35,771 nt of DNA from Zoogloeaceae bacterium (GTDB lineage Bacteria; Pseudomonadota; Gammaproteobacteria; Burkholderiales; Rhodocyclaceae): NCBI GenBank assembly GCA_031259605.1, contig JAIRLE010000185.1, positions 1 to 35,771 of the forward strand, given 5' to 3'. The notes below the pieces were generated by a model that saw nothing but the letters and a program-made list of their open reading frames with translations, did no database searches and had not been told where the DNA came from. Positions 9,514-35,771 of this stretch are shown one piece after another. How positions within the stretch are numbered: position 1 is the first letter of the stretch; each line of letters starts with the position of its first letter. The position numbers and the translations under genes are program-made.

Positions 9514-9589
9514 GGGCGCTTAGCTCAGTTGGTAGAGCGTCGCCCTTACAAGGCGAATGTCGGCGGTTCGAACCCGTCAGCGCCCACCA
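9514..9589 (+). tRNA. tRNA-Val (anticodon UAC), CCA encoded
   Basis: GGGCGCT...AGCGCCC acceptor stem, TAGCTCAGTTGGTAGAGC D-arm, loop CTTACAA, GTTCGAACCC T-arm, ACCA end; follows hupB. Confidence 0.95.
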
Positions 9590-30790: not shown

Positions 30791-32020
30791 ATGACGCCGA
30801 CCTTCACGCCCCTCCCCGACGTTCGCACGGACGCCGCCGCAACGCCGCCCGCCGAGGCAAAAGCGCAGACACTGGAATTGCAGCGGGCGTTCACCCTGTT
30901 CAACCAGGTTTCCGCCGAACTTACGCAAGCTTATGCCGCACTGCAACAGCAAGTGACTTCGCTTACCGGGGAACTCGCCGTCGCCAACGGCGAATTACGC
31001 CGCCAGTATCAGGAGAAAGAGGCGCTTTCCGAACGTTTGCGCCTGTTGCTCGACGCCTTGCCCGCCGGCGTGGTGGCGTTGAATGGCGCGGCGCGCATCA
31101 CTGAAGCCAATCCTGTTGCCCGTGACATGCTGGGCGCGAATATCGAAGGCCGCCACTGGGGTGAAGTCGCGCGCGAACTGCTCGAACCCAGCCTGACGCT
31201 GGGCGAATGGCAACTGGGAGACAAGCGCCTGAACCTCGCGGAAAGCCCGCTGGACTCTTCCGGCGGCAAATTGCTGCTGCTGCATGACATTTCCGTCGCG
31301 CACCAGATGAAGACCGAACTCGAACGCAATCAGCGTCTGGCGGCAATGGGCGAACTTGCCGCTTCACTGGCGCATCAACTGCGCACACCGCTGGCGACGG
31401 CGCTGCTTTACGCGGGCAACCTGGGGCAGGCCGAACTCTCCGACGCGGCGCGTCGCCGCTTTGCCGACAAGGTCGCCGCGCAACTCAAACGTCTGGAACG
31501 GCTGATCCAGGATGTGCTGCTCTTTGCGCGCGGCGAAAGCATAGGCCGGGACGTGATTTCCGTCGCCGATCTGTTCCTTGAAGCGGGGCAGGCGCTGGAA
31601 CCACTCCTGAAAGCGCGGGAAGTGCGGCTGGAAACACGGTCGCCCGCGTCGGACGTTCGCATCGTCGGCGGCAGAAAGGCGCTATCCGGCGCGCTGGTGA
31701 GCCTTCTGGAAAACGCCTTGCAGGTCAGCGCGCCCGGAAAGGCCATCCGGCTTTGCGCCGATTACGGCAACGATGAAATCCGCCTGTCGGTTGCGGACGA
31801 AGGTCCCGGCATCCCGAAAGATTTGCAGACGCGCATCTTCGAGCCTTTCTTCACCACCACGCCGCAGGGTACCGGACTGGGACTGCCGATCGCGCTGGGC
31901 GTCGCCCGCGCCCACGGCGGCAGCCTCACCGTCGAATCGACGCCGCCCGGCGGCGCGCGCTTCATCCTCTCGCTGCCGGCACAATCCGCCGGGAAGGAAG
32001 GCGGCAGTTATTCATCGTAA
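30791..32020 (+). CDS. PAS-containing sensor histidine kinase, FleS/FlrB-like
   Basis: LAAMGELAASLAHQLRTPLATALLYAGNL H-box, ALVSLLENALQVS N-box, ADEGPGIP and GTGLGLPIALGVARAHGG G-boxes; divergent from fliF. The TAA stop lies in repeat copy (c). Confidence 0.85.
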   Translation: MTPTFTPLPDVRTDAAATPPAEAKAQTLELQRAFTLFNQVSAELTQAYAALQQQVTSLTGELAVANGELRRQYQEKEALSERLRLLLDALPAGVVALNGAARITEANPVARDMLGANIEGRHWGEVARELLEPSLTLGEWQLGDKRLNLAESPLDSSGGKLLLLHDISVAHQMKTELERNQRLAAMGELAASLAHQLRTPLATALLYAGNLGQAELSDAARRRFADKVAAQLKRLERLIQDVLLFARGESIGRDVISVADLFLEAGQALEPLLKAREVRLETRSPASDVRIVGGRKALSGALVSLLENALQVSAPGKAIRLCADYGNDEIRLSVADEGPGIPKDLQTRIFEPFFTTTPQGTGLGLPIALGVARAHGGSLTVESTPPGGARFILSLPAQSAGKEGGSYSS

Positions 32021-32128
32021 AACCAACTCCGGTTTGAAACCCCGCCCGTAAGAAAGGCGCGAAGGTCGAAACCCTTTCCCAATGACGTTAGACCGGTAGC
32101 CCTGAAGGCTGCCGCTAATTTCTTGCTT
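32011..32128 (-). repeat. Dispersed repeat copy (c), inverted relative to (a) and (b)
   Basis: Reverse complement GCAAGAAATTAGCGGCAGCCTTCAGGGCTACCGGTCTAACGTCATTGGGAAAGGGTTTCGACCTTCGCGCCTTTCTTACGGGCGGGGTTTCAAACCGGAGTTGGTTTTACGATGAA. Confidence 0.87.
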
Positions 32129-32440
32129 TCGTCGTATTCCGCCAGACCTTTTTTCCAGATCGCCGCGAACAGCCCCGCTTTGCCCATTGCTGGAAACGGG
32201 CATGCAGGGCAGACGAACCCGGACACTCGAACTTCTCCCGGGGAAAGGCGTTCCAGACGATTCCCGTTCGCAGCACATGCACGATCCCCGAAAAATACAG
32301 CCGGTCACTGTACTTTGCCTTCCTGCCTCCGCCCGGCTTGCGTTTGCAGCCGTGCCGCGCGTCCTGCCGATTCGCGGGCAACAGCGGCTCGACAGGCGCC
32401 CGGAATTTATCTGGAATTCCCCATGCGCGTGTCCTGACAA
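32129..32440 (-). pseudogene. Truncated, frameshifted IS5-type transposase N-terminal remnant
   Basis: WGIPDKFRAPVEPLLPANRQDARHGCKRKPGGGRKAKYSDRLYFSGIVHVLRTGIVWNAFPREKFECPGSSALHARFQQWAKRG, then in another frame LFAAIWKKGLAEYDES; the homologous sequence stops at repeat copy (c). Confidence 0.75.
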
Positions 32441-32614
32441 TCTGTCGTTCCTCTTTGCCCGTTCCATTCACCTGACATGCACAGCATAGCGGGAAATAGC
32501 TCGTTCGGCTAGAATTGTTTGCGGATAAGTAAAAATGTTCGGTTCCGTTGCCCAGGTTTTGCAAAGGCAAGCGCTAAAATTGTGCCGCCAAATGACGGGG
32601 CCAAACACCCCTGA

Positions 32615-33611: not shown

Positions 33612-35000
33612 TCAATTCATCGCCTGGATGCGTTGTCGTGTGCGCTCCCTGCCCATCAGGGCGATCAGGGCATCGACGGGAGGCGTTTGTGTCTGTCCGG
33701 TGAGCAGTACGCGCAGGGGCATGGCGAGCTTGGGCATCCTGATCCGGTGCGTTTCCAGCGTTTCCTTGAGCAACGCGCCAATCGCGGCGACATTCCAGGG
33801 AACATCGGCCAGCTTCCGGGTGAAATCGGCAAGGGCGGGGCGCGCTTCCATGTCCAGATATTGACGCACAAGCTCCGGCGCGGGGCGAACCCCGGCATAC
33901 AGGACCCGTAGCGCTTCCGCCAGCGCCTTCAGGGTGTTGCAGCGGTCGACGTACAGGGCGACGGCTCGCGCCAGATCGGGGCCGTCATCCAGGTTTGCGC
34001 CAAGCGCCACGAGGCGCGGGGCGACTTTCGCGGCAAGCTCGGCCTCCGACAGGGATTTCATGTAGTGCTGATTGAGCCAGAGAAGTTTTTCATTATTGAA
34101 CTGGGCGGCGGAAGGCGTGATGCGCGTGAGGTCGAACCATTGCACGAACTGTTCGCGGCTGAAAACCTCGTCGTCGCCATGCGCCCAACCCAGCCGCGCG
34201 AGATAGTTGATGACGGCATCCGGCAGGAATCCGTCGCCATCGTATTGCAGGACGGAAACCGCGCCATGCCGCTTAGAAAATTTCGTGCCGTCGGGGCCGT
34301 TGATCATGGAAAGATGCGCGTATTGCGGCGGCGTCGCGCCCAGTGCCTTGAGGATGTTGATCTGGCGCGGCGTGTTGTTGACATGGTCGTCACCGCGGAT
34401 GACCTGGGTTATGCCCATGTCCCAGTCATCGACCACCACGCAGAAGTTGTAGGTGGGCGTGCCGTCGGCGCGGGCGATGACGAGATCGTCGAGTTCGCTG
34501 TTGGCGAATTCAATCTGCCCCTTGACCAGATCGTTCCAGGCGGCCACGCCGTCGCGGGGATTCTTGAAACGGATCGCGGGCGCAACGCCGGGCGGCGGAT
34601 CCGGCAAGGTTTTGCCGGGTTCGGGACGCCAAGCCCCGTCGTAGCGGGGCTTTTCGCCGCGCGCGCGCTGTTGTTCGCGCAGGGCGTTCAGTTCTTCGGG
34701 GGACATGTAACAACGATAGGCCGTACCCGCCGCCAGCATTTCCTGAATGACTGCCCGGTAGCGTTCCATGCGCCTGGTCTGGTAAAACGGCCCTTCATCA
34801 TGGTCGAGACCCAGCCAGTCCATGCCGTCCAGGATGGCTTTGACCGCTTCCGGCGTCGAGCGTTCCCGATCGGTATCCTCGATGCGCAGGATGAACTGGC
34901 CGCCGTGATGCCGGGCATATGCCCAGGAGAACAGCGCCGTGCGCGCGCCGCCAATATGCAGATAACCGGTGGGACTGGGAGCGAAACGAGTACGGATCAT
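33612..35000 (-). CDS. gltX: Glutamyl-tRNA synthetase
   Basis: [65 protein letters not shown]-type motif. Confidence 0.97.
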
Positions 35001-35476
35001 GGCAAGCCTTGCGCAACAAGGAAAAGGCCGAACGCCTTGTATTGAATGAATTTCCGGCCTTTATCGGACTGCATAGGGCTGGTGATTGGTGGGTGGTACT
35101 GGATTCGAACCAGTGACCCCTGCCGTGTGAAGGCGGGGTTTACTTGGGCGTTGTCCTTCGCTTCCGTGCCGTTTGTCATAAGGCTGGCGGTTACGGCCAG
35201 CGCCAGAATGCTGGCCGCTTTCGCGTGTTCCACGAAAGGGAGCCAAAAAGCGCGTTTTTCGGGCTTTTTCTCCGTCGCCAGTTCAGAGGCGGCGATAACC
35301 TCCAGCGGGTCGGCGTCAATGATTTTTGCAAGCTTTATGCATGCATCGTTGGGAAGTCCTCTTTTGCCTCTGTTTGCTCCTCTTAGGTCTTCTGCATAAA
35401 GTCCTAAGTGTTCCGCTAAGGCTTTTTGGCTGCCGGTTTTTTCTGTACCTGTGCCTATGTAGTCGCGCAATTTCAT
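34997..35476 (-). CDS. Phage-type HTH regulator (DUF3693-like) whose ORF runs through the tRNA fragment
   Basis: [102 protein letters not shown] then C-terminal hydrophobic segment; AGGAGG RBS at 35482-35487. Confidence 0.72.
35087..35134 (-). other. tRNA-Val(CAC) 3'-half fragment, candidate attachment site (attL/attR) of an integrated element
   Basis: Minus strand: GCC TTCACAC GGCAG GGGTC ACTGG TTCGAAT CCAGT ACCACCC A CCA gives anticodon loop, anticodon 3' stem, variable loop, T-arm, acceptor 3' strand and CCA. The 5' half (D-arm, acceptor 5' strand) is absent upstream. Confidence 0.75.
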
Positions 35477-35496: not shown

Positions 35497-35516
35497 ACAG
35501 AGTAAATTTACTCTGT
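35497..35516. promoter_or_regulatory. Perfect 20-bp palindrome ACAGAGTAAATTTACTCTGT, candidate operator 1
   Basis: Self-complementary; overlaps a TTGACA hexamer (35494-35499) in the divergent intergenic region. Confidence 0.7.
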
Positions 35517-35529
35517 TAGCGTCACTATT

Positions 35530-35549
35530 ACAGAGTAATTTTGCTCTGC
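35530..35549. promoter_or_regulatory. Imperfect palindrome ACAGAGTAATTTTGCTCTGC, candidate operator 2
   Basis: Near-copy of operator 1, offset by 33 bp. Confidence 0.6.
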
Positions 35550-35690: not shown

Positions 35691-35771
35691 ATGAGCATCA
35701 AGATCGAAGTTAGGAGTGAAGAGTTGGACGTTAAGGCGGGTGTGAGCCAGAAGAACGGCAAGCCGTACAAC
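35691..35771 (+). CDS. N-terminus of filamentous-phage (inovirus) gene V-like ssDNA-binding protein, truncated by window end
   Basis: MSIKIEVRSEELDVKAGVSQKNGKPYN resembles Ff gpV N-terminus MIKVEIKPSQAQFTTRSGVSRQGKPYS; AAGGAG RBS at 35677-35682. Confidence 0.72.
   Translation, partial: MSIKIEVRSEELDVKAGVSQKNGKPYN

Follow-up and report, generated by a model that had tools for sequence, protein, structure and literature searches.

A tRNA-Val(CAC) half gene beside gltX in a Zoogloeaceae genome very probably marks the end of an integrated filamentous phage

How the 3′ half of a tRNA gene comes to stand next to a glutamyl-tRNA synthetase gene, with its 5′ half missing, is the question raised by one end of a 35,771-nucleotide stretch of Zoogloeaceae DNA (here called the window), which is the entire contig C66 of a fragmented MAG (210 contigs, 93.7% complete). 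The host gene, gltX, lies at 33612–35000 on the minus strand (Pfam PF00749, PF19269). Beside it, positions 35087–35134, read on the minus strand from 35134 to 35087 (GCCTTCACACGGCAGGGGTCACTGGTTCGAATCCAGTACCACCCACCA), hold a tRNA-Val(CAC) that sets in at the end of its anticodon 5′ stem and continues to CCA. The initial annotation had described this half gene as the scar of an integration event, and both coordinates and description prove exact: 47/48 positions are identical to the intact tRNA-Val(CAC) of a genome of the same genus (G004), the sole difference being an A for G in the T loop. Past 35134, on the upstream side, identity is no higher than expected by chance, and the 5′ half is indeed absent. 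Neither ARAGORN nor Rfam at the gathering threshold calls a tRNA at 35087–35134; the only tRNA that they report in the window is a tRNA-Val(TAC) at 9514–9589, and a permissive Rfam scan adds a weak tRNA-like match at 35087–35146 and nothing stronger. A genome-wide search for the T arm plus acceptor end, allowing up to 3 mismatches, gives a single match (a reversed control pattern gives none); with 1 difference, these 26 nt are also the 3′ terminus of the tRNA-Val(CAC) genes that ARAGORN calls in 11 genomes of the same genus. We take 35087–35134 to be the core of the attachment junction at its scar end.

The sequence beyond the scar, from 35135 to the contig end at 35771, is very probably phage DNA, being the end of an inovirus integrated in tRNA-Val(CAC) upstream of gltX. 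The contig stops about 637 bp into this element, and the G+C content, ~0.60–0.64 across most of gltX, has fallen to 0.46 at that point. A repressor gene occupies 34997–35476 on the minus strand, its conserved HTH-containing part spanning 35141–35476 and matching the phrog_638 transcriptional regulators (E 2.8e-15). Divergent from it, on the plus strand, a filamentous-phage ssDNA-binding protein gene begins, of which the contig retains 27 codons (35691–35771) before it ends. PHROG matches to this fragment are weak (E 0.07), and its 27 codons show 85% identity to the start of the 108-residue ssDNA-binding protein of a contiguous inovirus of the same genus (L092, in genome G012). That phage carries the same type of repressor together with the ssDNA-binding protein, and also encodes a G2P-type replication protein, a Zot-type ATPase and a secretin; a pI/Zot-type ATPase gene is present in L092, L130, L132 and L134, all with the same repressor family. 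The element, which the initial annotation had left unnamed beyond its integration, is thereby identified as a filamentous phage, giving an identity to a previously unlabelled contig end.

Two palindromic operator-like sites at 35497–35549 (ACAGAGTAAATTTACTCTGT at 35497–35516 and ACAGAGTAATTTTGCTCTGC at 35530–35549, 33 bp apart) separate the repressor gene from the ssDNA-binding protein gene that diverges from it. Across the family, every phage has its own palindromic operator-like pair upstream of the repressor, with a different sequence in each (for instance L056:118-171, L054 ~820-870, L094 ~875-935 and L092:9697-9748), as would be expected if the phages belong to different immunity groups.

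Integration into a tRNA gene had led to the prediction of an intact tRNA-Val(CAC) at the far end of the element. Sequence patterns and a tRNA family model (35 matches in the window's genome, 30 of them with fetched loci typed by ARAGORN) found in that genome neither a second copy of the 3′ half, nor a 5′ half, nor an intact tRNA-Val(CAC), a result that, taken literally, counts against the prediction. We attribute the missing tRNA to the contig break inside the element, which leaves the far junction absent from the assembly. The integrase gene of this element was not found in the window's own genome either, and the L092 replication protein, searched against the same genome without a positive control, gave no match. 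One integrase gene, on contig C131, was considered as the missing one and rejected, as it adjoins a different tRNA scar and belongs to another element. That second scar (G000:C131, L086:3788-4385) is a 3′ half reading as tRNA-Arg(CCG), and it directly adjoins the end of the tyrosine integrase gene, which is 70% identical to the Val-type one; no intact tRNA-Arg(CCG) is found among the 30 typed tRNA loci. In G002 and G012 the gene mrp precedes tRNA-Val(CAC), and the contig that carries mrp in the window's genome was a candidate for the missing left flank; it ends without the tRNA and decides nothing.

The far junction is, however, seen in two sister genomes, so that the predicted intact tRNA is absent from this assembly but present in its relatives. 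G002 and G015 each have one contig with the phage repressor, the scar and a gltX that is 89–90% identical to that of the window, and another contig with a complete tRNA-Val(CAC) followed directly by a partial tyrosine integrase gene that points at the tRNA. Since the two junctions of each genome lie on separate contigs, we infer the link between them. In G012 the same tRNA-Val(CAC)–integrase end holds a complete integrase (Pfam PF00589, 6.7e-33), and three inovirus prophages from IMG/VR (L100, L106 and L114) combine the Val(CAC) core with a 53–54% identical integrase. The empty site is found in G004, where tRNA-Val(CAC) is followed without interruption by gltX (77% identical to that of the window) on the same strand and at similar spacing, just as had been anticipated for a relative that lacks the insert. 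Together with the phage genes beyond the scar and the two junctions of G002 and G015, this bears out integration into a tRNA gene. Two further genomes, G006 and G016, were considered as empty sites and not accepted, for while some 60 bp after their tRNA resemble the flank in the window, gltX was not found beside it.

A contiguous example is found in Propionivibrio soli SG131, where a single contig holds an intact tRNA-Phe, then a repressor of the same family, zot, a secretin gene and an integrase gene, and, 14.6 kb further, a 38-bp exact direct repeat of the tRNA-Phe 3′ half that starts in the anticodon loop. This element has the full predicted anatomy on one contig, at a different tRNA. The two types differ in where the repressor sits, which is beside the intact tRNA in the P. 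soli type and beside the scar in the Val type.

The pairing of the anticodon stem is broken in the scar, as the initial annotation had pointed out: the 5′ stem reads CCGCC in the window and CTGCC in the host tRNA. Direct reading of the window, L054, L056 and L094 gives a core-type site (in the window CCCC-GCC / TTCACAC / GGCAGGGG, at 35117–35138 on the minus strand), in which the 7-nt anticodon loop TTCACAC is flanked by inverted arms. Core sites of tyrosine recombinases typically consist of paired arms around a centre of 6–8 nt. The phage-side arm of the sister prophages, CCCCTGCC, repeats GGCAGGGG of the tRNA side exactly in inverted orientation, and the mismatched stem is therefore most plausibly the phage's own half of the core site; the left arm in the window, CCCCGCC, has one T fewer than CCCCTGCC. 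Strand exchange would then take place in or near the TTCACAC loop.

The arrangement suggests how the insertion may have come about. A phage-encoded tyrosine integrase, whose gene would lie beyond the contig end, would recombine the host tRNA gene with a phage site that contains its own copy of the tRNA 3′ half, probably by exchange in or near the anticodon loop. At the far end, beside the integrase gene, the tRNA would be completed by the phage copy of the 3′ half, while the original 3′ half of the host would be displaced to the gltX side, where it would form the scar. The phage repressor gene ends at this junction and reads into it, and the two palindromic operators separate it from the divergent replication genes.

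Three other explanations of the locus have to be weighed against an integrated inovirus. With a MAG of 210 contigs, and a window that breaks off within the element, assembly or binning could have fused the end of a phage contig with a host contig at the tRNA 3′ half that the two share. Such a chimera is highly improbable, however, given that two other MAGs have the same gltX–scar–repressor junction with repressors that differ (70% and 51% identical), that both keep the phage core arm CCCCTGCC, and that the same construction stands on one contig at tRNA-Phe in a named strain, P. soli SG131. With just ~0.6 kb of the element visible, and with tyrosine integrases at tRNA genes being widespread among genomic islands, the insert might instead be a non-phage integrative element carrying a related integrase and a repressor-like gene; yet both the repressor and the start of the ssDNA-binding protein match a complete inovirus of the same genus (L092), and we regard an island as very unlikely.

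The scar might also be a decayed tRNA pseudogene, or the 3′-half remnant of an old element since lost, with phage genes adjacent to it by coincidence. The left arm, one base shorter than CCCCTGCC in the sisters, does allow that this copy is old or unable to excise, but with a single mismatch across the 48 nt, an uninterrupted repressor frame, a flawless operator palindrome and the same arrangement in sister MAGs, a mere remnant has hardly any probability. The integrated inovirus is thus the reading that we retain.

The element belongs to a kind already known, namely filamentous phages with tyrosine integrases in tRNA genes, and a large survey has counted inovirus prophages with attachment repeats in tRNAs (PMC6813254). 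The Pf phages of Pseudomonas aeruginosa (Pf-tRNA-Gly, -Met and -Sec) are filamentous phages of this kind, with tyrosine integrases and sites in tRNA genes. They also resemble the present element in a tRNA fragment (27–46 bp in theirs) as the second copy of the attachment site and in a repressor gene, and would do so in an integrase of the XerC superfamily (PMC7549136). Unlike them, the present element has tRNA-Val(CAC) as its target and Zoogloeaceae as its hosts, and its repressor gene is placed at the attachment site, into which the frame continues. The Ralstonia phages RSM1 and RSM3 are similarly filamentous and use the 3′ end of a tRNA (Ser), their site being flanked by the recombinase and repressor genes, but they differ in having a small serine recombinase, a 13-nt core and a repressor that is unchanged by integration (PMC3816273). 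To the filamentous-phage targets our comparison adds tRNA-Val(CAC) in Zoogloeaceae, and it accounts for the absence of this intact tRNA from the MAG.

The position of the repressor gene deserves separate consideration. The open frame that begins at 35476 has no stop before the attachment core, crosses it and stops in host DNA at 34997. The same lack of a stop before the tRNA sequence is seen in the window, L054, L056, L092, L096, L097, L130, L132 and L134, the frame entering the core in this way at Val, Pro, Arg and Phe tRNA sites. In L125, L126, L131, L135, L136 and L138 the final repressor codons fall within a dif-like arm, [T/C]ATTATGT, or extend through it, and L126 and L138 have a strong dif match some 8 kb away (24/28 positions of a dif consensus), which suggests that these relatives are XerCD users with the same layout. 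The exceptions are L122, L128, L129, L133 and L139. Within this repressor family the 3′ end of the gene thus appears usually to lie inside the attachment site, be it tRNA or dif, a generalisation well supported by the loci compared. Two Azonexus loci (L129:840-870 and L139:970-1000) share TCTTATATAAGA at the end of the repressor, with no tRNA or dif site there, and this may possibly be another kind of attachment site. The orientation differs from all these at L137:1644-2001, where an intact tRNA-Lys(CTT) shares the strand of the repressor, whose frame enters it by the 5′ half.

What this layout does to the protein can be predicted in the sister genomes. The repressor tails in G002 would be TKNAAAAGSERR in the free phage against TKNYSEAI in the integrated one, only the last residues being different, and in G002 and G015 alike free and integrated tails differ only after the part encoded by the tRNA. 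The window lacks one base in the core arm, which shifts its reading of the core into a frame that its sisters do not use. We considered a conserved functional tail for the repressor, and the different frame of the window tail argues against it. No C-terminal tag is evident by eye in the predicted free and integrated tails of G002 and G015. In mycobacteriophages of the BPs type the repressor C-terminus differs before and after integration, the latter removing a C-terminal tag that controls the stability of the repressor. These phages, with their integration-dependent immunity, resemble the present case in having the attachment site within the repressor gene (PMC4557955), but no such tag is seen in the repressors studied here and their tails are not conserved. 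A likeness is also offered by the Ralstonia phage RSS0, in which the regulatory gene ORF13 has attP at its 3′ end (Yamada 2013, PMC3816273) and whose integration alters the C-terminus of the regulator and leaves it truncated (PMC3816273); RSS0 relies on host XerCD at dif, whereas the element in the window uses a tRNA site and, we infer, its own integrase. One might speculate, at rather long odds, that the repressor of this family ends in the attachment site whatever the recombination system, and that each integration rewrites its C-terminus in a way that could signal the integrated state. The recurrence of the layout in users of tRNA and dif makes the old hypothesis from RSS0 testable across a family.

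Some minor observations concern the same genomes. In G015, related phages have two additional left ends and two additional right ends outside tRNA genes (L052:9670-9801, L053:4370-4491, L094:1200-1240 and L095:310-340), where the match to the core shrinks to a few bases around TTCACAC; considered as two secondary insertions, the pairs tested do not close by gene order in relatives. A stretch beside one of these ends (~96-167 of L095:328-1000) recurs at more than 20 other places in G015, as an interspersed repeat. Elsewhere on the minus strand of the window, by our own reading, the adjacent frames at 181–1050 and 1116–2165 both resemble prolipoprotein diacylglyceryl transferase (lgt), as a tandem pair, and a frame at ~32012–32570 resembles an IS5-type transposase and seems to be a remnant of it, corresponding to the N-terminal part.
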